Assembly (NCBI RefSeq): GCF_021401245.1
Contig: NZ_JACBFY010000002.1
Location: forward strand, 868,001 to 932,000
Direction of reading: 5' to 3'
Source of the DNA: Pseudacidovorax sp. NFM-22
Lineage (GTDB): Bacteria; Pseudomonadota; Gammaproteobacteria; Burkholderiales; Burkholderiaceae_C
DNA: 64,000 bases
The notes beneath the pieces were generated by a model. It was not told where the DNA came from, ran no database searches, and saw nothing but the letters and a program-made list of their open reading frames with translations. The translations under genes were made by a program, and so were the position numbers. Positions 15,335 through 33,028 of the stretch are shown piece by piece. How positions within the stretch are numbered: position 1 is the stretch's first letter; every line of letters starts with the position of its first letter.

Positions 15335-18300
15335 TCAGCGCCCGGCCGGCGCGCCGTGCCCCGGCGCCGCCCGCACCCGCGCCACCTGCGCGGGCAGATC
15401 GGCCCAGGCCGGCGCCTGCGGCGCGAAGCGGGCGCGCATGTAGCCCGCCAGCTCGGCAACCTGCGCATCGTCCAGCGCGTCGCGGAAGGCGGGCATGAAG
15501 CCGATGTCCCGCGTGGGCGGCGTGCGCACGCCGTCGAGGATGGTGCGGATCAGGTTGTCGGGCCGCGTACTGGTGAGCTGGCTGTTGAGGGCCAGCGGCA
15601 CGTTCGCGCCCAGCAGCGTGGGGCCGTCGCCGTCGTGGTGGCAGGCGGCGCAGGCGGACTCGAACATCCGCTGCGGCGCGCCCAGCAACGCGCCCTGCCC
15701 GGCGGCGGCGCGCTGCACCGCCTGCGTGGCGATGGCCTGCGCATCGGCCGCGGGCGCCGGGTTGAAGCTGGCCAGATAAGTGGCCATGGCGCGCACGTCG
15801 CCGTCGGGCAGCTGCTGCAGGCCGTGCACCACCTCGGCCATCGGCCCGCCCGCGATGCCGTGGCGCGGCGAGTGGCCGTGACGCAGGTAGGCGTAGAGGC
15901 TCTCCGCGTCCCAGGGCACCGCGTTGGTGGAGCGGGCGGTGAGGGCCGGCGCCTCCCAGCCGTCGATCAGCGCGCCGGACAGGAAGTCAGCGCCGGCTTT
16001 CTCCGCACCCAAGGCGTTGCGCGGGCTGTGGCAGGCGGCGCAGTGGCCCAGGCCGTTCACCAGGTAGGCGCCGCGGTTCCATTCGGCGCTCTGGCCGGCC
16101 ACGGGCTGGTAGGGCGTGGCGTCGTGGAACAGGCCGTTCCAGCCGGCCATGAGCGGGCGCAGGTTGAAGGGAAAGCGCAGGTCGTTGGCCGGCATGAGGG
16201 CCAGCCCCCCGTCCTCGCGCGCGCCGGCCTTCACCGGCGGAAGGGACATGAAGTAGGCGTAGAGCGCCTGCAGGTCGTCGTCGCTGGTCTTGGCGAAGGC
16301 GGTGTACGGGAAGGCCGGGTACAGGTGGCGGCCGTCGCGCGAGATGCCCTCGCGCATCGCGCGCTGGAAGGCAGTGAAGGACCAGCGGCCCAGGCCGGTC
16401 TCGGCATCGGGCGTGAGGTTGGTCGTGTGGATCGTGCCGAAGGGCGTGTGCATGGCCCGGCCGCCCGCGTTGGGCAGGCCGCCCTCGGCCGTGTGGCAGA
16501 CGGCGCAGTCGCCGGCGGCGGCCAGCTGGCGGCCGCGCTCGATGGTCTGCGCGCTGTAGGCCGGCGCGCTGAAGTTGACGGGCGCGATGGCCGGGCGCCA
16601 GCCGAGCAGGCCGGCCACGGTGCCGATGCCGCCGACGAGCAGGCCGGCGATGAGGGCGGGCCAGCCCTTGCGCTTAGGGGCTGGGGTATTGCTCCTTCCC
16701 CCTGTGGGGGAAGGCTGGGATGGGGGCTGCGGCGCTCGATCAGGCGACGGCGTCCGGGTCTGGCCCCCACCCCCGCCCTCCCCCACCGGGGGAGGGAGTG
16801 AAGACAGCGCGGCCAGCACCTTCTCGGGCGTGAAGGGCGGCTCGCGCAGGCGCACACCCGTCGCATCGAAGATGGCATTGGCGATGGCGGCCGTGCCCGG
16901 CACCGAAGCCGACTCGCCCGCGCCCAGCGGCGATTCGCCGGGGCGCGGCATCTGCAGCACCTCGATGACCGGCACTTCGCGGAAATGCAGGATCGGGTAG
17001 CTGCCCCATTCGCGGGTGGCGACCACGCCGGCCGGCGGCATGCCGGGCAGCGGCGTCTTCACGGGAAGCTGCGAAGCCGCGCTCCCGGCCGGCGGCGCGG
17101 CGGGCGCGAAGCGCACCTCCTCCTTCAGCGCGCGGCTGGTGGTCTGGATGACGTTGCCGTGCACCTGGTGCTCGACCCCGGCCGGATTGACCGTCAGGCC
17201 TGCATCGTGGCCGACGACCACGCGGCGCACATGCACTTCGCCGGTCCGGCGGTTGACCTCCACATCGGCGACCCAGGCGGCCCAGGCGGCGCCGAAGCCG
17301 GGCCACTTGCTGTGGATGTAGCGGGCGTACGCAAAGCCCTGTCCAAAAAGGATGTCGCCGCCGGGTCCGACCCGAGACTGCGGCGGCCGCGAGGGATGGT
17401 CCCCATGCGCATCCTCCTGCGGCCCGGTGCGCCAGCGCCAGCCGGCCTTCCGGGCCGTGGCCTCGATCAGCTCGCGCGCCCGCTCGTCGGGCAGGTGGCG
17501 CAGGCGGAACTGCACCGGGTCCACGCCCGCGGCGGTGGCCAGTTCGTCGATGAAGCTCTCGTGCGCAAAGGAGTTGGGCAGGGCCGAGACGCCGCGCAGC
17601 CACGAGGCTCGCACGATGGGCGCCATGTCGCGCACCTGCACCCGCAGGTGGTCGTAGGCGTAGGGCGGCCGCGCGGTGCGGTCGCCCATCTCGTAGGCCT
17701 GGGCCAGGGGCTCCACGGTGCGGGTGAGCAGCAGGGCCAGCGTGGGCGCGCCGTTGCTCGGGTAGCTGGTTTGGAAGTCGTAGGCCGCGATGCCGCCTTC
17801 GGGCGACAGTGCGCCGGCCACCTCCATCAGTTGGGCAGTGCCCTTGGGCTCCCACAGGTGCTCCTGCTCGCGGCTGAGCTGCACGCGCACCGGCGCATCG
17901 ACCGCGCGGGCCAGCAACGCGGCATCGGCCGCGACGTCGTCGGCGCCGTTGCGGCCGTAGCAGCCGGCGGCCTCCAGGCGGACCACGTCGACTTCGACGT
18001 CCTGCAGGGCCAGCAGGCGGGCCAGGTCGGCGCGCAGCACATGCGGGTTCTGCGTGCCGGCCCAGCAGCGCAGGCGGACGGCGGGTCCGCCTTCGCGGCC
18101 TGCGCCCTTCTGGCCACCGCCACTGCCATTGCCCGTGCCATGCCCGCTGCCATCACCGTCGCGGTCGTCGTCTGGCTCCCACTGCGCCACCGCGCAGGAC
18201 GGCCCGATGGACGCATGCAGCTGGTACGGCCACAGGTAGGTGCGTCGAAGCGTGCCATCACCCTGCAGCGCAGCCTCGACGTCCCCCTCGTCCACCAGCG

Positions 18301-19255
18301 TGCGCGTCGTCGCGGGGTTGGCGCGGATGGCCTCGGCCACCTTGCCCGCGCCGGCGAGGTCGGGCATGCCGGGCCAGGCCTTCCAGCGGACGCGCAGCTC
18401 GCGCATCGCCTGCTCGGCGTGCTCCTCGCGCTCGGCCACCACGCCGACGAAGTCGCGGATGACGACCACGGCGCGGATGCCGGGGATGTGGGCGATGGAT
18501 GACTCGTCCACCGACTCCAGCGTGTTGCCGATGAAGTCGCCATGGTCCGCGCCGGCATAGGGCGGGCGAATCACGCGGCCGTGCAGCATGCCGGGCAGGC
18601 GCATGTCGTGCACGAAGGCCAGTTCGCCGGCCAGCTTGGCGGGGATGTCGATGCGCGGCTGCGGGGTGCCGACCAGGCGGTAGTCCTCGGGGCGCTTGAG
18701 CAGCGTGGCCGTGTCCAGCCGCAGCACCGTGCGCTGGCCGGCCAGCAGATCGGCCAGAGCCAGAGCCGCGCCCTCGGCCACGATGCGTCCGCCATCGATG
18801 GTCAGTTCGCTCGCCGGCCGGCCGAGCCGCTCGGCGGCACGCGCCAGCAGCCAGTGCCGTGCCTGCGCCGCTGCCAGCCGCAGCGGCTGGGCGTGGATCT
18901 GGATGGACGCACTGGCAATGGTGGCGCCCTGGTTGGGCACCTGCGCCGTGTGGCCCAGCGCCATGGCGACGCAGGCCATGGGCACGTCCAGTTCCTCGGC
19001 CACGATCTGGGCCAGGGCGGTCTGGATGCCGGTGCCCAGGTCCACGTGGCCGTTGAGGGCGGTGACGCTGCCGTCGTCCCAGACGGCCAGCAGGACTTCG
19101 TCGCCCTCCGCCGGATTGCCGGGCACGGCGGCGGGCTGGCCCTTGGCGGGCGGCGGCGGAACCGGCGTGTCGCGCACGACGACCAGCACGCCCTCGGCGC
19201 CCAGGAAGTCGGCGCGCGTGCGGGGCTGGGCGGCGCGGCGCGGGTCGGCGGTCAA
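15335..19255 (-). CDS. nicB: Molybdenum hydroxylase large subunit with triheme cytochrome c domain, NicB-like
   Basis: A 1306-residue protein with three parts. Residues about 40-810 are the molybdopterin-binding region of the isoquinoline/nicotinate oxidoreductase family (DGSVTALNGHVDLGTGIQTA, DIPAKLAGELAFVHDMRLPGM, RASWLRGVSALPNSFAHESF, AGESASVPGTAAIANA). Next come a low-complexity linker and a membrane helix (WPALIAGLLVGGIGTVAGLL, about 860-885). The C-terminal part has three heme sites, CAVCH, CAACH and CAACH, near residues 917, 1072 and 1202. This matches nicotinate dehydrogenase subunit B, which passes electrons to the respiratory chain through hemes. The TTG start overlaps the nicA stop as TTGA, implying coupling. 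A palindromic repeat pair sits in frame in the linker. Other N-heterocycles are possible substrates. Confidence 0.82.
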   Translation of the reverse strand: MTADPRRAAQPRTRADFLGAEGVLVVVRDTPVPPPPAKGQPAAVPGNPAEGDEVLLAVWDDGSVTALNGHVDLGTGIQTALAQIVAEELDVPMACVAMALGHTAQVPNQGATIASASIQIHAQPLRLAAAQARHWLLARAAERLGRPASELTIDGGRIVAEGAALALADLLAGQRTVLRLDTATLLKRPEDYRLVGTPQPRIDIPAKLAGELAFVHDMRLPGMLHGRVIRPPYAGADHGDFIGNTLESVDESSIAHIPGIRAVVVIRDFVGVVAEREEHAEQAMRELRVRWKAWPGMPDLAGAGKVAEAIRANPATTRTLVDEGDVEAALQGDGTLRRTYLWPYQLHASIGPSCAVAQWEPDDDRDGDGSGHGTGNGSGGGQKGAGREGGPAVRLRCWAGTQNPHVLRADLARLLALQDVEVDVVRLEAAGCYGRNGADDVAADAALLARAVDAPVRVQLSREQEHLWEPKGTAQLMEVAGALSPEGGIAAYDFQTSYPSNGAPTLALLLTRTVEPLAQAYEMGDRTARPPYAYDHLRVQVRDMAPIVRASWLRGVSALPNSFAHESFIDELATAAGVDPVQFRLRHLPDERARELIEATARKAGWRWRTGPQEDAHGDHPSRPPQSRVGPGGDILFGQGFAYARYIHSKWPGFGAAWAAWVADVEVNRRTGEVHVRRVVVGHDAGLTVNPAGVEHQVHGNVIQTTSRALKEEVRFAPAAPPAGSAASQLPVKTPLPGMPPAGVVATREWGSYPILHFREVPVIEVLQMPRPGESPLGAGESASVPGTAAIANAIFDATGVRLREPPFTPEKVLAALSSLPPPVGEGGGGGQTRTPSPDRAPQPPSQPSPTGGRSNTPAPKRKGWPALIAGLLVGGIGTVAGLLGWRPAIAPVNFSAPAYSAQTIERGRQLAAAGDCAVCHTAEGGLPNAGGRAMHTPFGTIHTTNLTPDAETGLGRWSFTAFQRAMREGISRDGRHLYPAFPYTAFAKTSDDDLQALYAYFMSLPPVKAGAREDGGLALMPANDLRFPFNLRPLMAGWNGLFHDATPYQPVAGQSAEWNRGAYLVNGLGHCAACHSPRNALGAEKAGADFLSGALIDGWEAPALTARSTNAVPWDAESLYAYLRHGHSPRHGIAGGPMAEVVHGLQQLPDGDVRAMATYLASFNPAPAADAQAIATQAVQRAAAGQGALLGAPQRMFESACAACHHDGDGPTLLGANVPLALNSQLTSTRPDNLIRTILDGVRTPPTRDIGFMPAFRDALDDAQVAELAGYMRARFAPQAPAWADLPAQVARVRAAPGHGAPAGR
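16692..16798. repeat. Head-to-head palindromic repeat pair inside nicB
   Basis: Two copies of a palindromic unit stand in opposite orientation: 16692-16727 (CCTTCCCCCTGTGGGGGAAG with a GGCTGGGATGGGGGC tail) and 16760-16798 (the inverted copy). The unit belongs to the same general class as intergenic repeats of this genome, yet here it is translated in frame as the Pro/Gly-rich linker between the molybdenum domain and the membrane helix of NicB (LPPPVGEGGGGG...QPSPTGGRSN). Confidence 0.8.
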
Positions 19256-19743
19256 CGCGGCGCCTCCGGCACAGCCGCGGCGCCGAGCCGGGCCGCGGCC
19301 AGGCTCACCGCACGCAGGATCTCCACATGCGTGCCGCAGCGGCACAGGTTGCCCGACAGCTCGCTGCGGATACGGGCCTCGTCGGCCTGCGGCTCACGTG
19401 CCAGCAATGCCGCGGCCTGCATCACCATGCCGTTGAGGCAGTAGCCGCACTGGGCGGCCTGCGCGTCTTCGAACGCCTGCTGCACGGGATGGAAGTGGCC
19501 ACGGCGGCCCAGCCCTTCCAGCGTGGTGATGGCGCGCCCCGCCACGCCATGGGCCGGGATCACGCAGGCCCGCGCCGCGGTACCGTCCACATGCACCGTG
19601 CAGGCGCCGCACTGGCCCAGGCCGCAGCCGTACTTGGGGCCGTTGAGCCCCAGGTCGTTGCGCAGCAGGTGCAGCAGCGAGGCCTGGCGCGGTACCTCGC
19701 CCGCGAAGGGCTGGCCGTTGACGGTGAGCTGGAGCGCGGGCAA
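19252..19743 (-). CDS. nicA: [2Fe-2S] small subunit of molybdenum hydroxylase, NicA-like
   Basis: A 163-residue iron-sulfur subunit. The first cluster is plant-ferredoxin type, YGCGLGQCGACTVHVDG with Cys 40, 45, 48 and 60. The second is the helical type, CGYCLNGM and CRCGTH. It passes electrons from the molybdenum centre of NicB to its hemes. The sequence closely follows the NicA pattern (LRNDLGLNGPKYGCGLGQCGACT; SGNLCRCGTHVEILRAV). No ATG is available; TTG at 19743 gives the usual length, but its AGAAGG lies about 15 bases upstream, so the start is uncertain. It lies 20 bp after the nicotinamidase gene and overlaps nicB. Confidence 0.87.
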   Translation of the reverse strand: MPALQLTVNGQPFAGEVPRQASLLHLLRNDLGLNGPKYGCGLGQCGACTVHVDGTAARACVIPAHGVAGRAITTLEGLGRRGHFHPVQQAFEDAQAAQCGYCLNGMVMQAAALLAREPQADEARIRSELSGNLCRCGTHVEILRAVSLAAARLGAAAVPEAPR

Positions 19744-19763
19744 GGCAGGTCGCTCGAACCTTC

Positions 19764-20507
19764 TCAGGCGACGTCGGCCGACTGGATGCGCTTGACGCCC
19801 TTGGCCTGCATCTGCTGCCAGGCCTTGGCGAGCGAACCGTTGAGGTCGATGGCGCGGGTGGCGTCCTCGATCACGTAGACATTGAAGCCGGCGGCGCGCG
19901 CATCCAGCGCCGTCCAGGCCACGCAGAAATCGGTGGCCAGGCCGGTGACGTACACCGTCTTGATGCCGCGCGCTTTGAGGTAGCCGGCCAGGCCGGTGAC
20001 GGTCTTGCGGTCGGCCTCCTGGAAGGCGGAGTAGCTGTCCACGCCCTTGTTGTAGCCCTTGCGGATGATGAGCTGCGCGGTGGGCAGCTTCAGGTCCTTG
20101 TGCAGGGCCGCGTCGTCGGTGCCCTGCACGCAGTGGTCGGGCCACAGCACCTGGTTGCCGTAGTTCAGCTTGACGCTGTCGAAGGGCTTGGTGCCGTTGT
20201 GGGCGCTGGCGAAGGAGGTGTGGCCCGGCGTGTGCCAGTCCTGCGTGACGATGATGTTCTGGAACTTGGGTGCCAGCGCATTGATGACCGGCACCACGTC
20301 GGCCCCGCCCTTGACGGGCAGCGTGCCGCCGTCGACGAAGCAGTTCTGCACGTCCACCACGATCAGCGCGGCCTGGGCGCTGGGGCTGATCTTCTTCGCG
20401 TCGGCCGCCAGCAGCGGCGGCGCGATGGCGGCCGCGCCGAGGGCGGCGGCGGCCTGCAGGAAGTGGCGGCGTTGGGGTGCGTTGCGCAGCATGGTCATCG
20501 TCATCAT
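19764..20507 (-). CDS. Tat-exported nicotinamidase (isochorismatase family)
   Basis: A 247-residue cysteine hydrolase that matches PncA-type nicotinamidases. The catalytic triad is Asp52 (IVVDVQNCF), Lys150 (IIRKGYNKG) and Cys195 (GLATDFCVAWTA). The metal ligands are Asp90, His92, His96 (QDWHTPGH) and His125 (LWPDHC). Unlike ordinary PncA it begins with a twin-arginine signal, QRRHFLQAAAALGAAAIAPP, ending in LLAADA, so it should work in the periplasm. It would turn nicotinamide into nicotinate beside the nicAB genes that follow. The ATG at 20507 is backed by GGAGGG; a second ATG follows directly. Another amide is possible, but all PncA key residues are present. Confidence 0.87.
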   Translation of the reverse strand: MMTMTMLRNAPQRRHFLQAAAALGAAAIAPPLLAADAKKISPSAQAALIVVDVQNCFVDGGTLPVKGGADVVPVINALAPKFQNIIVTQDWHTPGHTSFASAHNGTKPFDSVKLNYGNQVLWPDHCVQGTDDAALHKDLKLPTAQLIIRKGYNKGVDSYSAFQEADRKTVTGLAGYLKARGIKTVYVTGLATDFCVAWTALDARAAGFNVYVIEDATRAIDLNGSLAKAWQQMQAKGVKRIQSADVA

Positions 20508-20533
20508 CAGTCCCTCCGAGGACAGGTTGGAAA

Positions 20534-21268
20534 TCAGACGCTCAGGTAGGCCCGTCGAACCTCGTCGTTGGCGGCCAGCTCGTCCATGGTGGCCTGGTAG
20601 CGGATCTGGCCTTTCTCCAGCACGTAGGCGCGGTCCGAGACGAGTTCGGCGAAGTGCATGTTCTGCTCCGACAGCAGGATGGACACGCCCTGGGCCTTGA
20701 GCTCCAGGATCATCTGCGCCATCTGCTCCACGATGACCGGTGCGACGCCTTCGGAGGGTTCGTCGAGCAGCACGAGGTAGGGGTTGCCCATGAGCGTGCG
20801 GGCGACGGTGAGCATCTGCTGCTCGCCGCCGCTCATGCGGCCGCCGGGGCGGTCGGGCATCTCGCCGAGGTTGGGGAAGAGCTTGAACAGCTTCTCGGGC
20901 GTCCACAGCGGCGCGGCACCGCCATCGGCCCATTGGCGGCCGGCCTGGCGGCCGACTTCGAGGTTCTCCATGACCGTGAGGTCGGTGAAGACGCGCCGGT
21001 CTTCGGGCACGAAGCCCAGGCCCAGACGGGCGGCATGGTGCGGCTCGGTCTTCGAGATGTCGTGACCCAGGAAGCGGATGCTGCCGCGGCGCTTGGCGAG
21101 CATGCCCATGAGGGCCTTGAGCGTGGTCGACTTGCCGGCGCCGTTGCGGCCCATGAGGGCGACGACTTCGCCGCGGCGCACTTCCAGGTCCACGTCGTAG
21201 AGGATCTGGGCGGCGCCGTACCAGGCGCAGAGGGACTTGGCTTCGAGCAGGACGGGCGGGGTGCTCAC
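20534..21268 (-). CDS. Branched-chain-type ABC transporter ATPase (LivF-like)
   Basis: A 244-residue ATP-binding subunit of the LivF class. Walker A is GRNGAGKSTT, the signature is MSGGEQQML, Walker B is LVLLDEPSEGV, followed by the switch His region (LLSEQNMHF). Typical LivF features include LCAWYGAAQILYDVDLEV and VPEDRRVFTDLTVMENL. It belongs with the LivG, permease and binding-protein genes upstream on the same strand but is separated from livG by a 770-bp repeat-rich stretch. The nicotinamidase gene begins 26 bp after it. Confidence 0.92.
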   Translation of the reverse strand: MSTPPVLLEAKSLCAWYGAAQILYDVDLEVRRGEVVALMGRNGAGKSTTLKALMGMLAKRRGSIRFLGHDISKTEPHHAARLGLGFVPEDRRVFTDLTVMENLEVGRQAGRQWADGGAAPLWTPEKLFKLFPNLGEMPDRPGGRMSGGEQQMLTVARTLMGNPYLVLLDEPSEGVAPVIVEQMAQMILELKAQGVSILLSEQNMHFAELVSDRAYVLEKGQIRYQATMDELAANDEVRRAYLSV

Positions 21269-22040
21269 TGGTGGGGCCTTGTTGTGGGTGTCGTTGCGAA
21301 CGTTGGAAGCGTCCGGTTCTGAATGACTTTCGCAGTGGTGCGCGTGCTCGCAGCTTCACTGGCGGTGGGGGCGGCGCGGTGGGGCCGGGCTGCCAGGGGC
21401 TCAGACGGTGGCGGTCGATGCTGCGCATCGACTCCGCTGCGATGCTCGGTCAGGGGGCGCGTCGCATAACTCGCTGCGCTGCCTGCGGCAGCTCCGCTCA
21501 GACAAATGCGACGAGTCAGATCACGAAGCGCGCGTGTCTTCGCACGCGCGCCGCCCCCTGCCCTGCGCTTCTCGCCACCACCGAAATCGCCCCTGGCAGC
21601 CCAGCCCCGCCGCGCGGATACGTCGCGCTCGATGGGACGCACAAATGCCCGCGGCTCTGGCGAGGCAACGGGGCGAACTGAGGTCGGGACCGGGGCGCTG
21701 GTGGCGGCAGAGGCGGAAGCGCCAGCGTCACCGCCGTAACTGACCACGGCGTGTCCCGCCCTGGTCGGGGCCTGGCCTGGGGCGGCTGCGTGTGCGTCGC
21801 CGAGAAGCGCAGGTTGGCCGGGCTGCGGGCCTGCCGGAGGACAGGCCCGCTTCGTGAACTGACTCGCGGCGTTTGTTTGAGCGGAGCTGCCGCAGGCAGC
21901 GCAGCGAGTTATGCCGCGGCCCGGCCGACCGAGCATCGCAGGGGAGTCGGCCCGCAGGGCCGACCGACGAACTCGCAGCCGCCCCAGGCCAGGCCCCGGC
22001 CAGGGCGCGCCCCGAACAGAACCAGCACCAATAACCAACA
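21269..22040. repeat. Noncoding island with nested inverted repeats between livF and livG
   Basis: No gene is supported in these 772 bases. A long inverted repeat of about 109 bases has arms at 21430-21538 and 21839-21948; both share cores such as CATAACTCGCTGCGCTGCCT and GCAGCTCCGCTCA. Nested around the right arm is a second inverted repeat of 33 bases with one mismatch (21758-21790 and 21974-22006, core GGCCTGGCCTGGGGCGGCTG). The homology between the arms weakens but continues inward past CTGCGCTTCTCG. Open frames on both strands translate the same repeat (ITRCAACGSSAQTNA) and are not genes. The island interrupts what would otherwise be a contiguous transporter operon. Confidence 0.85.
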
Positions 22041-22805
22041 TCAAGCAGCCTTCTTCTCAAAGGTCTTGCCAGACCCGAAGTACACCTCCTGCACCTTCGG
22101 ATGGTCCCGGATCTCCAGCGGCTTGCCCTCGGCGATCAGGCGCCCGCGCGCCAGCACGATCATGCGGTCGGCGTACGCGAACACCACGTCCATGCTGTGC
22201 TCGGTGAACAGCACCGCCATGCCGCGGTCGATCACCAGCTGCTTGGTCAGCGCCATCAGCGAATTGCGCTCCTTGGGCGCCATGCCGGCCGTGGGCTCGT
22301 CCATCAGCAGCAGCTTGGGGTCGTTGGCCATCGCGATGGCCAACTCCACCCGCTTGACGTCGCCATAGGCCAGCACGCTGCAGGGCCGGTCGGCCTGTGA
22401 CTTCATGCCCACCTGGTCGAGCAGCGCCAGCGCCTCGTCGCGCTTGTGGTCGGACGCCCGCCGCCACATGGCAAACAGCTTGGCGTCGTGCGACAGCAGC
22501 GCCATCTGCACGTTCTCGACCACCGTCAGCGACGAAAAAGTTTCGGCGATCTGGAAGGTGCGGCCCACGCCCAGGCGCCAGATCTCGCGCGGCTTCTTGC
22601 CGACCAGCTCGGTGCCGCCCAGCGTGATGGAGCCTTGGTCGGCCTTGAGCTGACCGTTGACCATGTTGAAGGTGGTGGACTTGCCGGCACCGTTGGGGCC
22701 GATCAACGCCAGCAGCTCGCCCTTGGCCAGCGTGAAGCTGATGCCGTCGACGGCCTTCACACCGCCGAAGGACTTGCCCAGGTTCTGGACATGCAGCAGG
22801 GACAT
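22041..22805 (-). CDS. Branched-chain-type ABC transporter ATPase (LivG-like)
   Basis: A 254-residue ATP-binding subunit of the LivG class: Walker A GPNGAGKSTTFNM, the LivG-typical FGGVKAVDGISF and VGRTFQIAETFSSLTVVENV, and Walker B LLLMDEPTAGMAPKE. The canonical LSGG signature is replaced by LAYGDVKRVELA, a variant also seen in urea- and aromatic-compound transporters of this class. It starts 50 bp after the fused permease gene and is probably co-transcribed with it. It partners the LivF-like subunit across the repeat island. Confidence 0.92.
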   Translation of the reverse strand: MSLLHVQNLGKSFGGVKAVDGISFTLAKGELLALIGPNGAGKSTTFNMVNGQLKADQGSITLGGTELVGKKPREIWRLGVGRTFQIAETFSSLTVVENVQMALLSHDAKLFAMWRRASDHKRDEALALLDQVGMKSQADRPCSVLAYGDVKRVELAIAMANDPKLLLMDEPTAGMAPKERNSLMALTKQLVIDRGMAVLFTEHSMDVVFAYADRMIVLARGRLIAEGKPLEIRDHPKVQEVYFGSGKTFEKKAA

Positions 22806-24843: not shown

Positions 24844-26058
24844 TCAGTCCGCGCTGCGGGACTTCTTCACGTCAGCCGCGGGCGGCTGGAAGCGGGCATC
24901 GGCGCCGTCGTAGTAGACGTAGTCCACCATCACGCCCTTGCCGCCGTCGTTCTTGGTCTTGCCCACGAAGGCGCCCATGGTCGACTGGTGATCTTCGGCG
25001 CGGTAGCTGATCTTGCCGAAGGGGCTGTCCACCTGCAGGCCCTTGAAGGCGGCGACCAGCTTGTCGGCGTCGGTGCTGCCGGCCTTGGCGATGCCGGCGG
25101 CGGCCGACTTGATCATGCTGTAGCCCACCACCGAGCCCAGGCGCGGGTAGTCCTTGAACTTGGCCTGGTAGGCATCGAGGAAGGCCTTGTGCTCGGGCGT
25201 CTTGATGCCGTAGTACGGGTAGCCGGTCACGATCCAGCCATCGGGCGCCTCGTCCTTGAGCGGGTCGAGGTACTCGGGCTCGCCGGTCAGCACGCTGACC
25301 ACGGTGCGGTCCTTGAACAGGCCGCGGGTGTTGCCCTCGCGCACGAACTTCGACAGGTCGGCGCCGAACAGCACGTTGAAGATGGCGTCGGGCTTGGCAT
25401 CGGCCAGGGCCTGCACCACGCTGCCCGCGTCGACCTTGCCCAGCGGCGTGGCCTGTTCGGTGACGAACTCCACGTCGGGCTGCGCGGCCTTCAGCAGGTT
25501 CTTGAAGGCGGCCACGGCCGACTGGCCGTATTCGTAGTTGGGGTAGACCAGCGCCCAGCGCTTCTTCTTCTGCTTGACGGCCTCGGGCACCAGCATGGCG
25601 GCCTGCATGTAGGTGCCGGGGCGCAGGCGGAAGGTGTACTGGTTGCCGCCCTGCCAGGTCATCTTGTCGGTCAGCGGCTCGCCGGCCAGGTAGAAGAATT
25701 TTTTCTGCTTGGCGAAGTCGGCCAGCGCCAGGCCGGTGTTGGACAGGAAGGCGCCGGCCAGCACGTCCACCTTCTCGCGCGAGACCAGTTCCTCGGCCAT
25801 GCGGACGGCGTCGCCCGGGTTGGCGTTGTCGTCGCGGGTGATCAGCTCGATCTTCTTGCCGTTGACGCCGCCCTTGGCGTTGATTTCGTCCACCGCCAGT
25901 TCCATGCCCTTCTTGTAGGGCTCCAGGAAGGCCGGCTGGGCCTTGTAGCTGTTGACCTCGCCGATCTTGATGACGTTCTGGGCGTGGGCCGGCATCAGCG
26001 TGCCGGCAGCCAGGGCCAGCGCAGCGGCGGCGCCAAAGTTGAGGCGGAAGGGTTGCAT
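24844..26058 (-). CDS. ABC transporter periplasmic substrate-binding protein (branched-chain class)
   Basis: A 404-residue type-I periplasmic binding protein. A signal peptide ends in PAHA/Q and the mature protein begins NVIKIGEVNSYKAQPAFLEPYKKGMELAVDEINAKGGVNGKKIEL, typical of the LivK/amide-urea family. It would capture the solute for the fused permease and two ATPases that follow. Its position, 69 bp after the DUF1185 genes and upstream of nicotinamidase and nicAB, suggests a pyridine carboxylate or related ligand, but family members bind very different solutes and the specificity cannot be read. Confidence 0.9.
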   Translation of the reverse strand: MQPFRLNFGAAAALALAAGTLMPAHAQNVIKIGEVNSYKAQPAFLEPYKKGMELAVDEINAKGGVNGKKIELITRDDNANPGDAVRMAEELVSREKVDVLAGAFLSNTGLALADFAKQKKFFYLAGEPLTDKMTWQGGNQYTFRLRPGTYMQAAMLVPEAVKQKKKRWALVYPNYEYGQSAVAAFKNLLKAAQPDVEFVTEQATPLGKVDAGSVVQALADAKPDAIFNVLFGADLSKFVREGNTRGLFKDRTVVSVLTGEPEYLDPLKDEAPDGWIVTGYPYYGIKTPEHKAFLDAYQAKFKDYPRLGSVVGYSMIKSAAAGIAKAGSTDADKLVAAFKGLQVDSPFGKISYRAEDHQSTMGAFVGKTKNDGGKGVMVDYVYYDGADARFQPPAADVKKSRSAD

Positions 26059-26127: not shown

Positions 26128-26712
26128 TCAGCGAAGACCGTCCACGCCCTTGATCTCGGACACCTGCAGGCCGCCGATGCGCGGCAGCGGACGGCCGCTG
26201 TCGGTCACGGCCACGGCCACCACGATCTCGCCCGCACGCGGGGCATCGCTCACGCGGGCCTCGACGGCATCGAAATGGCTGCGCACGAAGGCGGCGTCCT
26301 TGTGGCCCAGCGGCACGTCGATGGCGGTGCCCAGCGTGCCCTGCTTCTTCGCCGAAGGCACCAGCGCGGCGCCCTTTTCGACCGCCACGCGCAGTGGCGC
26401 GCCCAGCTTGGGATGGAGAATGGCCGCGGCATGCTCCAGCTCGCCGGCCTCGCCCACGATGGCGGCCTTGCCGTAGCTCTGTGCCTGGCCGGGCTCGATG
26501 CCCAGCGCCTTCACGGCCTTCTGGCCGAGCAGGCCGCCGAGTTCCTCGCCGATGGCGATGAGCTCGTCCAGGTTCTCGCTGTAGCGACCGGCGTAAGGGT
26601 TGGCGATGACGGCGATGGCGACGGCACGGCGCGTGGGCGGGTCGATGGTCTGGCCCATCTCCTTGCGGGTTTCGTCGACTTGCACGATGAGCTTGCGGAT
26701 GTCTGCGGGCAT
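26128..26712 (-). CDS. DUF1185 'amino acid synthesis' family protein, copy 2
   Basis: A 194-residue cytoplasmic protein of family DUF1185 (annotated elsewhere as amino acid synthesis protein, without a proven reaction). Conserved blocks are NPYAGRY, SYGKAAIVGEAGELEHAA and GTAIDVPLGHKDAAFVRSHFDAVEARV. It is a shorter paralogue of the next gene upstream: both share NP(Y/F)AGRY, YGK(A/G)AIVG.AGELEH and (I/L)DVPL. The two are separated by 26 bp and clearly arose by tandem duplication. They lie between the UPF0280 gene and the transporter. A catabolic role with the 6-hydroxynicotinate-reductase-like protein is inferred from linkage. Confidence 0.82.
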   Translation of the reverse strand: MPADIRKLIVQVDETRKEMGQTIDPPTRRAVAIAVIANPYAGRYSENLDELIAIGEELGGLLGQKAVKALGIEPGQAQSYGKAAIVGEAGELEHAAAILHPKLGAPLRVAVEKGAALVPSAKKQGTLGTAIDVPLGHKDAAFVRSHFDAVEARVSDAPRAGEIVVAVAVTDSGRPLPRIGGLQVSEIKGVDGLR

Positions 26713-26738: not shown

Positions 26739-27380
26739 TCAGCGCAGGCCGTTCCATTGGCTGATGTCCTCGGCCTTGAGGCCGCCGACGCGGGCATGCA
26801 CGCGGTAGCCGGTGGTCATGGCGAGGATGAAGACGATCTCGTCGGCCGCGGGCGCGCCGGGCACGCGCACCTCGATGGCGTCGAACTGGCCGCGCACATA
26901 GCTGGCGTTGATGTTGGTGAGCGGCACGTCCAGCGCGGCGCCGGGCGGGCCCACCTTCTTGGTCGAGGGCACGATGGACAGCGCATTGCCGGGCTGGCCG
27001 CTCTTGGCCTCGCCCTTGCCGGCGGTATAGGCGGCGCGGTCGCCCTTCCAGCCCAGCAGCTCGCGCATGGCGTAGCCGCCCGGCACATGCCACAGCGCAC
27101 CATGCTCCAGCTCGCCTGCCGCACCGACGATGGCGCCCTTGCCGTAGGTGGCGATGGCCTCGCGCGGCACGTCCATGGCGGCCAGCAGGCGCTGGGCCAT
27201 GTCCACGCCCACCGGGTCCAGCAGCGCCATCATGGGCAGGATGTCCGACTCGTAGCGGCCGGCGAACGGGTTGGCGAGCACGGCCGCGATGGCGCCGCGC
27301 ACCAGCGGCTGCTCGGCGCGGGGGCCGAACTCGTGGTGAATCTGCTCGACCTGGGTGAAGACGCGGCGGATGTCGATCAT
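26739..27380 (-). CDS. DUF1185 'amino acid synthesis' family protein, copy 1
   Basis: A 213-residue member of the same family as its downstream neighbour, longer by an insert around residues 110-130 (GWKGDRAAYTAGKGEAKSG). Conserved blocks are NPFAGRYESDILPMM, TYGKGAIVGAAGELEHGA, PSTKKVGPPGAALDVPL and YVRGQFDAIEVRVPGAP. No catalytic residue can be assigned from sequence. The pair may form a hetero-oligomer, since tandem retention of diverged copies often reflects that (inference). The gap of 24 bp to the UPF0280 gene indicates one transcript. Confidence 0.82.
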   Translation of the reverse strand: MIDIRRVFTQVEQIHHEFGPRAEQPLVRGAIAAVLANPFAGRYESDILPMMALLDPVGVDMAQRLLAAMDVPREAIATYGKGAIVGAAGELEHGALWHVPGGYAMRELLGWKGDRAAYTAGKGEAKSGQPGNALSIVPSTKKVGPPGAALDVPLTNINASYVRGQFDAIEVRVPGAPAADEIVFILAMTTGYRVHARVGGLKAEDISQWNGLR

Positions 27381-27404
27381 CGTGGTGAAGGGGTGTGCAA
27401 TTCG

Positions 27405-28295
27405 TTAAGCAAATACTGAACCAACGGCCGGCGCCAGCACGGCCTCGTCGCGTGCCGACAGCACTCTCCATTGCCCTTGGCACACGATCACGGCGGCGTG
27501 GATGAGGCCGCGCGACTGCAGTTCCGTCGCGCGTCGCAGCCCCGATTCGACCGCATCGCGCACCACGGTGGTGGGCAGCGGCGGCACCTGCACGGTGACG
27601 GGCAGCGCACCGAGGTCGCTGTCGTCCTTGCATTCGTTGGCGGGGCGACGCTCGATGGCGGGGTGGTCCGCATCGACCGCGTTGGCGACGATGGACGCCG
27701 CCGCATCGGCCTGCGCGGCCGTGGCCGCGAGGATGGTCACGCTGTCCGCGATGCCGAGCGAGAAACTGCGGCCCCGCCAGCCGCTGGTGGCGATGCCGCG
27801 CACCGGGTCGGCCGCCGCGACGCTGAACTGGCCGTCGGTGCGCAGGCGCTGCGCGTCTTGCGGCGCGAAGCGGGCCAGGTCGGCATAGAGGCCGACGCGC
27901 GCCTCGGTGCCGGGCGCGAGATGCAGCGCGATGTCGCCCCCATTGTTGATCCAGGCGCGGGCAATGCCGGGCCGCTGGTAGAAGGCGATCAACTCCTGCG
28001 CCACCGCGCCCGCCACGGCCGCCATCGGCGTGATGAAGGCGGGCAGGAAGGGCAGGCAGGCGGCCTGCATGCGCTTGGCTACGGGTCCATGCAGGCTCGC
28101 ATGCTCGGACACCGGGCGACGCAGCGCGGGCAGCTCGGCGACCAGCTCGTCCAGCAGGCCTTCGAAGCGCATCCATGCCGACTCGTGCGCCTCGGCCACG
28201 GCACGCGGCTCGCCCTCGGCCTGGACCACGAGGTCGATGGGACCGTGGTGCCAGTGCCAGCGCTCGGCATCGAGGGCGTGACGTTGGGCGGGCAT
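27405..28295 (-). CDS. UPF0280 family protein (ApbE-like fold)
   Basis: A 296-residue protein of the UPF0280 family, which is related in fold to ApbE flavin transferases. It shows VAGAVAQELIAFYQRPGIARAWINNGGDIALHL, similar to the ApbE core with its NNGGDI, then GIATSGWRGRSFSLGIADSVTILA, and a C-terminal ADAAASIVANAVD. ApbE proteins attach FMN to a Thr or Ser of a partner. The gene lies 23 bp after the 6-hydroxynicotinate-reductase-like gene, so flavinylation or another maturation of that enzyme is an attractive but untested idea. The ATG at 28295 gives the standard length. Confidence 0.8.
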   Translation of the reverse strand: MPAQRHALDAERWHWHHGPIDLVVQAEGEPRAVAEAHESAWMRFEGLLDELVAELPALRRPVSEHASLHGPVAKRMQAACLPFLPAFITPMAAVAGAVAQELIAFYQRPGIARAWINNGGDIALHLAPGTEARVGLYADLARFAPQDAQRLRTDGQFSVAAADPVRGIATSGWRGRSFSLGIADSVTILAATAAQADAAASIVANAVDADHPAIERRPANECKDDSDLGALPVTVQVPPLPTTVVRDAVESGLRRATELQSRGLIHAAVIVCQGQWRVLSARDEAVLAPAVGSVFA

Positions 28296-28318
28296 GCGTC
28301 GCGGCAAGAAGAGGCCGG

Positions 28319-29947
28319 TCAGCCCAGCATGGGCTTGTGGCCCAGCGGCCAGGGGTTGTCGCTGGACTGGCCGACGAAGCGGCGGGCGAGCGGCGCACCG
28401 TCGTCCTGCCAGGCGCCGCGGCGCAGCGCCTGCTCCAGCGACATCACATGCTCCATGTGGCCGCCCAGGTCTGCGTAGTCCTGCAGCCGCATGCTGAATT
28501 CGATGGGCGCGATGATGGCCGGCGTGGGCACGGTGCCGAAGCTGTTGTCGGGCATGCGCATCACGTCGGCCATGACGGTGATGCCGCCGCCCGGCCACAC
28601 ATAGGCCGGCGCACCACCGCAGGTCACGTTGACCAGCGCGCGCTTGATCGCCCGCGTGAGCAGGATCGGGTTCTCGGTCACGCCCGCGCGCAGGCTGCCG
28701 CCTGCACCGCCGAGGAAGAGCACCGTGGTGAGCGAAGGCTCGCAGTTCTCGCCGATGCGCTCGACCACCTTGCGCACGGCCTCGGGCATGGGCTGCGGCA
28801 CGGGGCGCAGCTCGTCGTCCAGCACGTACCACTCGGCCTGTTCGCCGGTGGTGGAGGTCATCAGCAGCTTGAGGCCCGGCCTGGCCACGCCGGGCTCCCA
28901 GCCTTCGATGATGGCCAGCGGGTCGGCGATGTCGGTGCCGCCCCAGCCGCTGCCCGGATTGGCCACCTGGAAGTAGCGTCCGGGCGTGGACTTGCGCCCG
29001 CGCATCTGGATGCCCGAGGGCGGCATGGCCAGGCAGCGGCCGGCCTGGTGCTCGGTGAGCACGCCGGTGATGTGGTCGTCGACCACCACCACCTCGTCGG
29101 CCAGCCCCAGCAGCTGCTTGGCGAAGATGCCCACCGTGGCCGAGCCGCAGCCCACGCGCATGCGCTGCTCTTCCACGCCGTTGACGATGGGCGCGCGGCC
29201 GGCCTGGATCACCAGGCTGGCGCCGCCGTCGATGGTGCATTCGGCCGCCTGCTTGTTGCACAGCCGCTGCATCATCTCCAGCGTCATGCGGCCTTCCTTC
29301 TTGCTGCCGCCGGTGAGGTGGTGCACGCCGCCCAGCGACAGCATCTGCGAGCCGTACTCGGCCGTGGTCACATGGCCCACCACCTCGCCCTTGTAGCGGA
29401 CGTTGGCCTGCTCGCTGCCGAGGAAGCGGTCGGTGTCGATCTTCACCTTCACGCTGCAGTAGCTGAAGATGCCTTCGGTGACCACGGTGACCATGTCCAC
29501 GCCCTGGGCCTTGGAGGCCACGATGAAGGGCGCGGGCTTGTAGTCGGGGTAGGTGGTGGAACTGCCGATGCCGGTGACGAAGACCTGGTCGGCCAGCAGC
29601 AGGTCGCCGTTCCAGTCGTCCTGCGGTGCATCGGCCGCGGCGGCTTCGACCGTGTCGGCCGCCGGACGGGCGAAGGGCACCAGGGCCGGCTCGGGCGAGT
29701 CCAGCTCGCGCCGCAGCATGACCACCGGGTCGGTGCGCACCAGCACGCCGTCGCGGTTGGCGTAGCGGTCGCAGGCGCCGGTGCGGCCGTCGGAGATCTG
29801 GCACAGCACCGGGCAGGCATTGCATTCGACCTTGCTCGTGCTCATGCGCTCGTTGCGCGCGGGCGCGCGGCCCAGGCCGTCGGGCGTAGTGGGCAGGGCC
29901 GGCACGTCGATGCCGGGCAGGCCGTCGGTCTTGGTGTGTTCTGTCAT
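28319..29947 (-). CDS. 6-hydroxynicotinate reductase-like iron-sulfur protein
   Basis: A 542-residue cytoplasmic protein. Near residue 40 it has a four-cysteine motif, VECNACPVLCQISDGRTGAC, which fits a [4Fe-4S] site, followed by several Gly-rich blocks (GIGSSTTYPDYKP, LGGVHHLTGGSKKEGRMTLEMM, VTCGGAPAYVWPGGG). It matches the family annotated as 6-hydroxynicotinate reductase, the E. barkeri enzyme that uses ferredoxin to make 1,4,5,6-tetrahydro-6-oxonicotinate. Context supports the call: an enamidase-like gene, a ferredoxin-NADP reductase and nicAB are all linked. ATG 29947 is preferred; the frame stays open about 240 bases further upstream without recognisable sequence. It is the first gene of the long minus-strand run. 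Confidence 0.75.
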   Translation of the reverse strand: MTEHTKTDGLPGIDVPALPTTPDGLGRAPARNERMSTSKVECNACPVLCQISDGRTGACDRYANRDGVLVRTDPVVMLRRELDSPEPALVPFARPAADTVEAAAADAPQDDWNGDLLLADQVFVTGIGSSTTYPDYKPAPFIVASKAQGVDMVTVVTEGIFSYCSVKVKIDTDRFLGSEQANVRYKGEVVGHVTTAEYGSQMLSLGGVHHLTGGSKKEGRMTLEMMQRLCNKQAAECTIDGGASLVIQAGRAPIVNGVEEQRMRVGCGSATVGIFAKQLLGLADEVVVVDDHITGVLTEHQAGRCLAMPPSGIQMRGRKSTPGRYFQVANPGSGWGGTDIADPLAIIEGWEPGVARPGLKLLMTSTTGEQAEWYVLDDELRPVPQPMPEAVRKVVERIGENCEPSLTTVLFLGGAGGSLRAGVTENPILLTRAIKRALVNVTCGGAPAYVWPGGGITVMADVMRMPDNSFGTVPTPAIIAPIEFSMRLQDYADLGGHMEHVMSLEQALRRGAWQDDGAPLARRFVGQSSDNPWPLGHKPMLG

Positions 29948-30236: not shown

Positions 30237-31010
30237 ATGAGTGCCTTCGCCGAAGAACGCGTCCTGACCGTCCACCACTGGACCGACCGCCTGTTCAGCT
30301 TCACCACCACGCGCGACGCTGCCCTGCGCTTCTCCAACGGGCACTTCACGATGATCGGGCTCAAGGTCGACGGCAAGCCGCTGCTGCGCGCCTACAGCAT
30401 CGTGAGCGCGAACTACGAGGAGCACCTCGAGTTCCTGAGCATCAAGGTGCCCGACGGCCCGCTCACCTCGCGGCTGCAGCACATCAAGGTCGGCGACACC
30501 ATCGTGGTGGGCCGCAAGCCCACGGGCACGCTGCTGATCGACTACACCCTGCCCGGCAAGCGCCTGTACCTGTTCGGCACCGGCACCGGCGTGGCGCCCT
30601 TCCTGAGCGTGATCCGCGACCCCGAGACCTATGAGAAGTTCGAGAAGGTGATCCTGGTGCACGGCGTGCGCGAGGTGGCCGAGCTGGCCTACCACGACAC
30701 CATCACGCAGGACCTGCCGCACCACGAGTTCCTGGGCGAGATGGTGAGCGAGCAGCTCCTGTACTACCCCACCGTCACGCGCGAGCCCTTCCGCAACCAG
30801 GGCCGCATCACCGACCTGATCACCAGCAACAAGCTCACCGACGACCTGGGCCTGCCGCCGCTCAACCCCGCGGAAGACCGCGTGATGCTGTGCGGCAGCC
30901 CCATGCTGCTGGCCGACATGAAGCTGATCCTGGAGCAGCGCGCCTTCCACGAAGGCAATACCACGACCCCCGGCGACTACGTGGTCGAGCGCGCCTTCGT
31001 CGAAAAATGA
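30237..31010 (+). CDS. Ferredoxin/flavodoxin-NADP+ reductase
   Basis: A 257-residue FAD enzyme of the bacterial FNR (Fpr) class. The FAD motif is LLRAYSIVSA (RxYS), the NADP motif is FGTGTGVAPFLSVIRD, and MLCGSPMLLADM is the third conserved block. The C-terminus YVVERAFVEK is the usual subclass I ending with a terminal basic residue after an aromatic-containing stretch. It moves electrons between NADPH and ferredoxin. Placed divergently from a ferredoxin-dependent-type 6-hydroxynicotinate reductase, it is a natural electron donor for it (inference). The region just before its ATG is AT-rich with no clear Shine-Dalgarno. Confidence 0.93.
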   Translation: MSAFAEERVLTVHHWTDRLFSFTTTRDAALRFSNGHFTMIGLKVDGKPLLRAYSIVSANYEEHLEFLSIKVPDGPLTSRLQHIKVGDTIVVGRKPTGTLLIDYTLPGKRLYLFGTGTGVAPFLSVIRDPETYEKFEKVILVHGVREVAELAYHDTITQDLPHHEFLGEMVSEQLLYYPTVTREPFRNQGRITDLITSNKLTDDLGLPPLNPAEDRVMLCGSPMLLADMKLILEQRAFHEGNTTTPGDYVVERAFVEK

Positions 31011-31014
31011 CCGC

Positions 31015-31093
31015 CCCCCGGCTTTTCACGCGCTGCGCGCGTGTAACGCCACCCCCCGAGGGGGAGGCGCGGCCGGCTTGGGGCGGCCCGGCG
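31015..31093. repeat. GC-rich intergenic repeat with hairpins
   Basis: The stretch holds the perfect hairpin CACGCGC-TGC-GCGCGTG (31027-31043), then CACCCCCCGAGGGGGAGGCG and CGGCTTGGGGCGGCCCGGCG. Similar Gly/Pro-coding palindromic sequences recur elsewhere in the window. It separates the reductase gene from the TetR gene and could weaken read-through. Confidence 0.55.
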
Positions 31094-31124
31094 CTCGGCC
31101 GCATCTTTTCGAGGACCTGATACC

Positions 31125-31883
31125 TTGGCCACGCGCAAGACGCCCGCCAAGCCGCAGCGCAAGACCGGCGTGCGCGAGGCGCAGGCGCAGGCCTCGCGCG
31201 AGGCCATCCTGCGTGCGGCCACCAAGGTGTTCGCCAAATACGGCTACGAGGGCGGCAGCGTGGAGAAGATCTCGCGCGCGGCCAAGTCGTACGACCGGAT
31301 GATCTATTACTACTTCGGCAGCAAGGAAGGCCTGTTCGTGGCCGTGCTGGAGGGCATCTACCAGCGCATGGACGAGGCCGAGGCCGCCATGGCGCTGGAC
31401 ATGGCCCGCCCGGTCGAGGCGCTGACCGAAGTGATCCGCTTCGTGCTGGGCTACTACCGGCGCAACCCCGACTTCGTCACCCTGCTCAACACCGAGAACC
31501 TGCACAAGGGGCGGCACATCGCCAAGTCGGTGCGGGCCCGCGAATACTCGTCGCGGGCGGTGGCGGTGATCGCCTCGATCCTGGAGAGCGGTACGGCCCA
31601 GGGCCTGTTCCGCCCCGACCTGGCCGCGCGCGACGTGTACCTGCTGATCGCGGCGACAGGCTATTTCTACATGTCCAACCGCTACACGCTCGCCAGCTTC
31701 CTGGGCGAGCAGCTCGATGCGCCCGAGGCCGCCCAGCACTGGGAGGCCTTCGTGACCGAGACGGTGCTGCGCACCGTGCGGCAGGACGACAGCACGGAAT
31801 CTCTCCCACCCCACGAGGAAACCCAAAAATGGCAGAAGTCGCCGCCGCCGGCAAGTCGGGCAAGGTCGTCATCCAGAACATAG
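31125..31883 (+). CDS. TetR family transcriptional regulator
   Basis: A 252-residue regulator. The helix-turn-helix is at about residues 22-70 (ASREAILRAATKVFAKYGYEGGSVEKISRAAKSYDRMIYYYFGSKEGLF), followed by a TetR C-terminal ligand-binding domain. The start is TTG at 31125 with GAGGA nine bases upstream. The 3' end overlaps the enamidase-like gene by 55 bases in another frame, so the last 18 residues (ending RARSSSRT) are probably an unstructured by-product. It lies between the reductase and amidohydrolase genes and is the only regulator in the catabolic island, so it likely controls the divergent region upstream. Confidence 0.88.
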   Translation: MATRKTPAKPQRKTGVREAQAQASREAILRAATKVFAKYGYEGGSVEKISRAAKSYDRMIYYYFGSKEGLFVAVLEGIYQRMDEAEAAMALDMARPVEALTEVIRFVLGYYRRNPDFVTLLNTENLHKGRHIAKSVRAREYSSRAVAVIASILESGTAQGLFRPDLAARDVYLLIAATGYFYMSNRYTLASFLGEQLDAPEAAQHWEAFVTETVLRTVRQDDSTESLPPHEETQKWQKSPPPASRARSSSRT

Positions 31884-33028
31884 GGCTGCTGCTCTCGGGC
31901 GACATCGACCAGCCCATCCTGCAGGCCGACACCATCGTGGTCCAGGACGGCCTGATCGCCGCCGTGGGCCGCTACAAGGACTGCGATGTCGAAGGCGCCA
32001 CCACCGTCATCGACGCGCGCCAGACCTGCGTCGCGCCGGGCCTGATCGACAGCCACGTGCACCCGGTGGCCGGCGACTGGACGCCGCGCCAGAGCCAGCT
32101 CAACTGGATCGAGTCCAGCATGAACGGCGGCGTCACGACCATGATCTCCGCCGGCGAGGTGCACTACCCCGGCCGGCCCAAGGACATCGTGGGCCTCAAG
32201 GCCCTGGCCATCACCGCGCAGCGCGCCTTCGACGCCTTCCGCCCCGGCGGCGTGAAGGTGCTGGCCGGCGCGCCGGTCATCGAGAAGGGCATGGTCGAGA
32301 GCGACTTCAAGGAACTCGCCGAGGCCGGCGTCAGCCTGCTGGGCGAGGTGGGCCTGGGCAGCGTCAAGGCCGGCTACGAGGCCAAGGAGATGGTGGCCTG
32401 GGCCCGCAAGTACGGCATCCAGAGCACCATCCACACGGGCGGCCCGTCGATCCCGGGCTCGGGCCTGATCGACAAGGACGTGGTGCTGGAGGCCGACGCC
32501 GACATCATCGGCCACATCAACGGCGGCCACACCTCGCTGCCCGAGGCGCATGTGTGCGAGCTGTGCGAGAAGAGCACGCGCGGCATCGAGATCGTGCACA
32601 ACGGCAACGAGCGCGTGGCCATCGCCGCGGCCAAGGCAGCGCTGGAACTCAAGTGCCCGCACCGCGTGATCCTGGGCACCGACGGCCCCGCCGGCTCGGG
32701 CGTGCAGCCGCTGGGCATCCTGCGCATGATCGCCATGCTTTCGTCGCTGGCCAACATCCCGGCCGAGCTGGTGTTCTGCTTCGCCACCGGCAACACGGCC
32801 CGCATGCGCAAGCTCAACTGCGGCCTGATCGACAAGGGCTATGCGGCCGACTTCGTCTTCCTGGATCGCGCCCAGCACACGGCCGGCCGCACGCTGCTCG
32901 AAAGCGTGCAGCTGGGCGATCTGCCGGGTGTGGGCATGGTGATGATCGATGGCATCGTGCGCTGCGGCCGCAGCCGCAACACGCCGCCGGCCACGGAAGT
33001 GCCCGTGGTGGTGTCCGGCGCGCATTGA
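31829..33028 (+). CDS. Enamidase-like metal-dependent amidohydrolase
   Basis: A 399-residue amidohydrolase-superfamily enzyme. Metal ligands are suggested by His76 and His78 (LIDSHVHP), His in STIHTGG, His in GHINGGH and Asp in ILGTDGPAGSG; a Glu in LLGEVGLGSVK fits the bridging position. The sequence follows enamidase of E. barkeri, which opens 1,4,5,6-tetrahydro-6-oxonicotinate to 2-formylglutarate and ammonia. It starts inside the 3' end of the TetR gene, implying coupled translation. It would supply the step after the 6-hydroxynicotinate-reductase-like protein. Related cyclic amidases (dihydroorotase-like) are the alternative. Confidence 0.82.
   Translation: MAEVAAAGKSGKVVIQNIGLLLSGDIDQPILQADTIVVQDGLIAAVGRYKDCDVEGATTVIDARQTCVAPGLIDSHVHPVAGDWTPRQSQLNWIESSMNGGVTTMISAGEVHYPGRPKDIVGLKALAITAQRAFDAFRPGGVKVLAGAPVIEKGMVESDFKELAEAGVSLLGEVGLGSVKAGYEAKEMVAWARKYGIQSTIHTGGPSIPGSGLIDKDVVLEADADIIGHINGGHTSLPEAHVCELCEKSTRGIEIVHNGNERVAIAAAKAALELKCPHRVILGTDGPAGSGVQPLGILRMIAMLSSLANIPAELVFCFATGNTARMRKLNCGLIDKGYAADFVFLDRAQHTAGRTLLESVQLGDLPGVGMVMIDGIVRCGRSRNTPPATEVPVVVSGAH

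Follow-up and report, generated by a model that had tools for sequence, protein, structure and literature searches.

We analysed a 64,000-nucleotide stretch of DNA from Pseudacidovorax sp. NFM-22 (contig NZ_JACBFY010000002.1, positions 868,001 to 932,000 of the forward strand), called the window below, within which all positions are counted. A divergent block of 14 genes at 15335-33028 is very probably a Burkholderiales member of the reductive nicotinate cluster known from other proteobacteria, its reactions being putative. As a kind, the cluster is ordinary. What is new is the co-occurrence of a UPF0280 gene with hnr, the gene of the 6-hydroxynicotinate reductase homologue Hnr, together with the presence of PF06684 genes in trigonelline-like gene sets and the exchange of modules around a fixed core. 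A sequence-only reading of the window had placed an exported nicotinamidase, NicA, a triheme NicB, an Hnr-like reductase, a ferredoxin-NADP reductase (FNR), an enamidase-like amidohydrolase, an ABC transporter and a TetR regulator in one divergent cluster, and each of these genes was found by domain, family or relative matches. It had overlooked three genes, the UPF0280 gene and a tandem pair from the PF06684 family.

Gene content of the cluster

On the minus strand, the transcription order is hnr, UPF0280, the two PF06684 genes, a Liv/Urt-like importer, the nicotinamidase gene, nicA and nicB, while the genes for FNR, TetR and the enamidase homologue occupy the plus strand (30237-33028). Several genes are closely spaced and the nicB start overlaps the nicA stop, as in an operon. 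Since a search of 14 further genomes of the genus found hnr in every one, and a Comamonadaceae plasmid (L025) has the identical gene order minus the nicotinamidase, the block is not a product of chance. The same block was also seen in most of the named genomes surveyed where the contig was long enough.

The nicotinamidase (19764-20507, minus strand) matched the Isochorismatase domain and PRK11609, the latter with 180.6 bits, barely above the cut-off of 174. Its N-terminus carries a twin-arginine signal (RRHFLQ, read by eye), in agreement with the export claimed earlier. Because of this signal, the enzyme is probably periplasmic, and nicotinamide would be cleaved outside the cytoplasm. NicA (19252-19743, minus strand; Fer2/Fer2_2; TTG start read by eye), the [2Fe-2S] subunit, is 85% identical to the L025 gene and 63-69% identical to genes of three nicC clusters. 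NicB (15335-19255, minus strand; TTG start overlapping the nicA stop), the large subunit, joins a Mo-cofactor domain (MoCoBD_1/2) and one membrane-like helix to a three-heme cytochrome c part with three CxxCH motifs (Cytochrom_C and Cytochrome_CBB3). By domains, relatives and tree, the nicotinate dehydrogenase of the cluster is thus predicted to be of the NicAB type. An N-terminal signal was not visible by eye in NicB, and a membrane-like helix stands just ahead of the three-heme part in 10 of the 11 proteins checked; this placement would set the Mo site and the hemes on opposite sides of the membrane.

A search of plasmid records with NicB gave 883 matches, of which the best 40 were listed. 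From the 39 that follow the syntenic one, seven neighbourhoods without hnr were hand-picked and opened, and all seven are nicCDEF-type clusters (with an FAD monooxygenase, an alpha/beta hydrolase and maleamate-amidase-type neighbours). An Asp/Glu racemase is annotated in six of them, and in the seventh (L133) its place is taken by a hypothetical protein 77% identical to NicE. By comparison with the proteins of L030, one of the seven opened clusters, relatives of NicC, NicD, NicE, NicF and NicX were confirmed in the six besides L030. Among the matches listed, the NicB of the window is 50-57% identical to nicC-linked plasmid NicB. The hnr-linked and nicC-linked proteins interleave in a tree of 25 NicB (18 and 7, respectively; 3 of 17 candidate sequences, shorter than 500 amino acids, were removed), with three label changes, at least two of them forced by supported branches. 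Judging from this interleaving, one NicB enzyme type is recruited upstream of both the hnr and the nicC routes.

Hnr (28319-29947, minus strand) matches nothing in Pfam or NCBIfam, and no PDB sequence well. Its relatives occur in 26 plasmid records at 57-82% identity; 17 of these are annotated as 6-hydroxynicotinate reductase, consistent with the reductase type named earlier, and the rest are hypothetical or unannotated. The Hnr model was poor (predicted local distance difference test, pLDDT, 65.5; predicted template modelling score, pTM, 0.57) with a best PDB structure match at E 0.64, and no fold is claimed. FNR (30237-31010, plus strand), found by domain match, is close to bacterial enzymes of this kind, among them 2QDX (E 2.8e-113), and likely feeds electrons to Hnr. 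The amidohydrolase at 31829-33028 (plus strand) matched the Eubacterium barkeri enamidase 2VUN at E 1.9e-106 over 380 residues, and its assignment to the E. barkeri type therefore holds.

Comparison with known systems

In Pseudomonas putida, nicotinate is degraded by the aerobic nicABCDEFX pathway. The window shares its NicA/NicB-type first enzyme (compared through the annotated nic clusters L029-L031) but, as had been stated before, holds no relative of NicC, NicD, NicE, NicF or NicX at E 1e-3. The sequence-only reading had also proposed a genome search for nicC, and would have been refuted by a complete nicCDEFX set elsewhere with this cluster induced by another compound. This search covered NicC, NicE and NicX genome-wide, with NicD and NicF compared at loci only. 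For NicC there were 10 matches, the best at 34% identity (62-72% for the NicC of six nic clusters), and for NicE two weak ones, the best at 25% (76-82% in the same six). A lone NicX-like gene, taken up below, lies in a picolinate-type cluster. The reading has withstood the genomic half of this refuting condition.

The nicotinate fermentation of E. barkeri was reportedly described by Alhapel in 2006. Both the Hnr and the enamidase families are common to it and to the window, the enamidase having been compared directly. On the other hand, the hydroxylase of the window is NicAB with its cytochromes, whereas excerpts of PMC10331938 give E. barkeri a four-subunit NdhFSLM.

The surprise that the sequence-only reading implied for such a hybrid has to be withdrawn, since hnr occurs in 38 of 397 Pseudomonadota genomes (own genome included; 20 of 232 genera) and the same combination is already known in Azorhizobium and Bradyrhizobiaceae. 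According to excerpts of PMC3511419 (2012), a single cluster there unites the genes of the first three steps with those of an ABC transporter and a pair of conserved unknown proteins, one Bradyrhizobiaceae strain degraded nicotinate in growth tests, and Bradyrhizobiaceae Hnr has 42% identity to that of E. barkeri; an excerpt of PMC9304392 lists Azorhizobium together with E. barkeri. The two unknown proteins are likely UPF0280 and PF06684. As in Azorhizobium caulinodans and Bradyrhizobiaceae SG-6C, the three-step genes of the window share one cluster with an ABC transporter in an aerobe. The window differs in belonging to Burkholderiales and in a block that adds nicotinamidase, TetR and FNR, none of which is mentioned in the excerpted text of PMC3511419.

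Co-occurrence of UPF0280 with hnr

The UPF0280 gene (27405-28295, minus strand) matched NF003322 with 390 bits (cut-off 290), and its name was taken from annotated relatives. Over the 397 Pseudomonadota genomes, the UPF0280 profile recovered the same 38 genomes as hnr, at E 1.4e-75 or better. In the 359 hnr-less genomes the profile search found none, aside from one match of 18.8 bits. The neighbourhood was surveyed at 142 hnr loci (11 from plasmids, 80 from named genomes, 14 from relatives and 37 from the phylum sample); these four sets are not disjoint (L123 and L069 look like the same contig) and include many close relatives, and their counts are not independent. UPF0280 adjoins hnr at 141 of the 142 loci, and at the remaining one the contig ends after a further 145 bases. 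In G367 (L155) UPF0280 contains one in-frame TGA, and in G055 (L186) the hnr match is broken into two pieces that differ in frame; decay or sequence error would account for either.

The UPF0280 model has a pLDDT of 92.7. The PDB structure search returned 2O34 (E 3e-11), and after it ranks 3-41 consist throughout of ApbE, FmnB and Ftp structures, with E-values from 7.9e-5 to 1.4e-2 and template modelling (TM) scores of 0.34-0.52. A GxATSG...ADxA pattern is found in 50 of 51 UPF0280 rows of alignment A3 and in 52 of 52 of alignment A5; its ATSG and ADxA would correspond to the Ser and Asp of ApbE, as read by eye rather than by structural alignment. Because the model resembles the ApbE flavin transferases, UPF0280 may supply Hnr with flavin in a non-canonical way. 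The Hnr of E. barkeri is said, in the 2006 paper, to have a covalently bound flavin. A literature search did not find the name UPF0280, and in the literature on flavin transferases 6-hydroxynicotinate was not found beside those terms among the matches listed.

Modules exchanged around the core

The following counts cover the 100 hnr loci that are flanked on both sides by 8.5 kb or more. The enamidase is present at 67 of them and HyuAB at 19, including one locus with both, and 15 have neither; in stretches of this length nicB or the enamidase gene may fall outside, which makes this last class an upper bound. NicB occurs at 54 of the same loci and a CoxL-type Mo enzyme (called only above 450 bits, with a query that has a [2Fe-2S] domain) at 26. 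The hydroxylase and the ring-opening enzyme are thus exchanged around a fixed hnr-UPF0280 core. HyuAB, which we take to be an ATP-dependent ring-opening family, likely substitutes for the enamidase. In the Roseobacter group, hnr clusters (L032, L143, L144, L145) have, close to their PF06684 genes, a subunit of a Rieske-type ring-hydroxylating oxygenase that may serve a different upstream substrate.

PF06684 in and outside hnr clusters

Two PF06684 (AA_synth) genes, identified by Pfam, stand in tandem on the minus strand, copy 1 at 26739-27380 and copy 2 at 26128-26712. Copy 2 is very near the crystallised SPO0826 (2QTP, E 2e-83), whose family was assigned to amino-acid metabolism partly via adjacent branched-chain transporter genes (excerpts of PMC2954203). 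The family is found in 74 of the 397 genomes, namely 37 of the 38 with hnr and 37 of the 359 without it, and at 138 of the 142 hnr loci. Two of the four misses are cut contigs (L063, L089) and two are real (L125, L158). From these absences and the hnr-less carriers, PF06684 was rejected as an obligatory part of hnr clusters.

Away from hnr, 20 PF06684 loci were examined, 18 from hnr-less genomes (picked from the 37) and two being further copies in the own genome. At 12 of the 20, relatives of an alpha/beta hydrolase, a luciferase-like oxygenase and an aldehyde dehydrogenase lie within 12 kb, a combination that we take to be the trigonelline gene set. The queries came from one of these loci (L201), which matches itself by construction; without it the count is 11 of 19, with two of the three relatives at 3 loci and other surroundings at 5, and the alpha/beta hydrolase matches elsewhere are weak (30-56%). 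Across 258 PF06684 sequences, Lys82, Glu91, Glu93, His94, Arg108, Arg174 and Arg178 (copy 2 numbering) are among the positions conserved at 95% or more in all three groups, as in an enzyme. Since the hnr and the trigonelline-like pathways would both pass through a 2-formyl-dicarboxylate, the pattern suggests that PF06684 acts on such compounds. Excerpts of PMC7913881, citing the trigonelline paper, describe TgnF of Acinetobacter baylyi as a PF06684 homologue that stimulates succinate semialdehyde oxidation. A role as decarboxylase is at odds with the coumarin pathway, whose HcdD belongs to PF06684 and had no visible effect according to the same excerpts, and the other Pfam-scanned surroundings (L187, L188, L189) indicate no single chemistry.

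Proposed pathway and alternatives

From gene content, homology, conserved neighbourhood and co-occurrence, we infer the following reactions. The exported nicotinamidase would convert nicotinamide to nicotinate, which the Liv/Urt-like ABC importer would take up. Membrane-anchored NicAB would hydroxylate C6 to give 6-hydroxynicotinate, passing the electrons to cytochrome c, and Hnr, with electrons from FNR, would reduce this product to 1,4,5,6-tetrahydro-6-oxonicotinate. Ring opening by the enamidase would release 2-formylglutarate and ammonia, and the carbon would go onward in the direction of glutarate. Homology and context thus favour the sequence of intermediates from nicotinamide to 2-formylglutarate that the sequence-only reading had implied. 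UPF0280 would be a regular partner that assists Hnr, most likely with its flavin, and the ring-opening step or the one directly after it is where the two PF06684 proteins would probably act. A bolder version, which we hold only tentatively and rather doubt as a whole, makes UPF0280 a dedicated non-canonical flavin installer of the ApbE superfamily for Hnr, HyuAB an ATP-dependent replacement of the enamidase, and the PF06684 proteins decarboxylases or tautomer-handling enzymes of 2-formyl-dicarboxylates. As part of the same proposal, PF06684 would take 2-formylglutarate to glutarate semialdehyde in hnr clusters and 2-formylsuccinate to succinate semialdehyde in trigonelline-like clusters.

Several observations count against these assignments. 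Hnr and NicAB were assigned via annotated relatives, not by comparison with their counterparts in E. barkeri and P. putida, respectively, and the hnr-linked NicB of alpha-proteobacterial plasmids is 48-50% identical to that of the window, no nearer than nicC-linked NicB. Just 7 Cys are invariant across 38 Hnr, few for the iron-sulfur clusters that E. barkeri Hnr reportedly has. PF06684 is missing at L125 and L158 despite more than 9 kb of room, and G172, the genome to which L158 belongs, lacks it altogether. For UPF0280, a His between the presumed Ser and Asp is present in only 5 of 50 (A3) and 7 of 52 (A5) rows and is absent from the window protein, and the ApbE target motif D-x-x-[ST]-G-A-[ST] occurs in none of the 38 Hnr rows of alignment A2 or the 38 of A4. 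Both the catalytic triad and this motif are given for ApbE in excerpts of PMC12052999. Canonical flavinylation of Hnr by an ApbE is accordingly rejected in its simple form. The missing motif and His, together with the modest TM-scores, are also what one would expect if UPF0280 were no flavin factor at all but belonged to Hnr as a structural subunit or served it as an electron-transfer adaptor. We regard this as a possibility of some substance, although one that we do not favour: the fold search is filled by ApbE, FmnB and Ftp below 2O34, the ATSG and ADxA motifs are retained, and the E. barkeri Hnr reportedly carries a covalent flavin. UPF0280 is therefore like the ApbE/FmnB flavin transferases in predicted fold and in these motifs, and unlike them in mostly having no catalytic His and in a partner without the target motif.

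Other readings concern the substrate and the lower route. The cluster might degrade another N-heterocycle, if its relatives of NicAB, Hnr and enamidase had shifted in specificity. The Hnr core may serve several substrates, given that clusters elsewhere have a CoxL-type Mo enzyme for NicAB, HyuAB for the enamidase, or both, and the specificities assumed here were read from sequence. Nevertheless, we consider it unlikely, because a nicotinamidase lies within the same operon, NicB is nearest to nicotinate-cluster NicB among the plasmid matches listed (syntenic plasmid aside), the enamidase is very near 2VUN and neither a close NicC nor a close NicE was found in the own genome. Even less probable, to the point that we would be surprised by it, is an island that stops at 6-hydroxynicotinate, with the genome completing the degradation by the classical 2,5-dihydroxypyridine path. 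It would do so through its one NicX-like gene (7475-8500 of locus L137, G000:C15:786001-805647), which at 51% identity falls within the 45-81% range of nic-cluster NicX and stands beside NicD-like (55%) and NicF-like (40%) genes. As it is as near to the query as the NicX of rhizobial nic clusters (45-47%), it probably encodes a real dioxygenase. However, the locus also holds genes for a Mo hydroxylase, a Rieske oxygenase with ferredoxin and reductase, an Amidohydro_2 protein and an ABC transporter. Mo hydroxylase, Rieske oxygenase and Amidohydro_2 protein are the enzyme kinds of the picolinate pathway in excerpts of PMC10142695, and by these kinds, the Pic proteins themselves not being compared, L137 appears to be a picolinate-type cluster. 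With such surroundings, and with no NicC above 34% or NicE above 25% in the genome, the NicX-like gene was set aside as proof of the classical path, even though, on identity alone, it could be a real NicX. The reductive route through Hnr and the enamidase remains our preferred reading. In a congener (G004, locus L138, C1:411001-431000), NicX-, NicD- and NicF-like genes were seen with an 80% NicE relative and a 37% NicC-like monooxygenase, probably for a different pyridine route.

Other features of the locus

The importer is encoded on the minus strand by genes for a periplasmic substrate-binding protein (24844-26058; domain match) and, by domain and family matches, a fused permease like LivH+LivM or UrtB+UrtC (22858-24813), a LivG/UrtD-like ATPase (22041-22805) and a LivF/UrtE-like ATPase (20534-21268). 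Between the two ATPase genes, a repeat search identified a non-coding dispersed repeat of 0.77 kb with long inverted repeats (21269-22040); it has 49 matches in the own genome, self included and mostly partial, and in the Comamonadaceae plasmid L025 the two ATPase genes abut at this point. The TetR regulator gene (31125-31883, plus strand; domain match) has a TTG start. Ten of the 14 cluster genes are in the coding-signal list based on GC at third codon positions (GC3); nicA, the nicotinamidase gene, UPF0280 and PF06684 copy 2 are outside it because their frames extend upstream. A tRNA-Val call at 15275-15374 was disbelieved, as it has no Rfam match and overlaps coding ends. Near the cluster, beyond YifB, ammonium transporter and P-II genes (10734-12695) hint at a nitrogen-use neighbourhood.

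Significance

With hnr in about a tenth of the sampled genomes, the gene set for reductive nicotinate degradation is widespread among Pseudomonadota. Within this set, UPF0280 and Hnr form a genome-level partnership without exception in the sample, and PF06684 is common to two apparently nicotinate-derived pathways, which puts its standing as an amino-acid-synthesis family in question. Two unknown families become directly testable enzymes in this way and, if the proposed roles are true, the uncharacterised UPF0280 and PF06684 would both gain functions.

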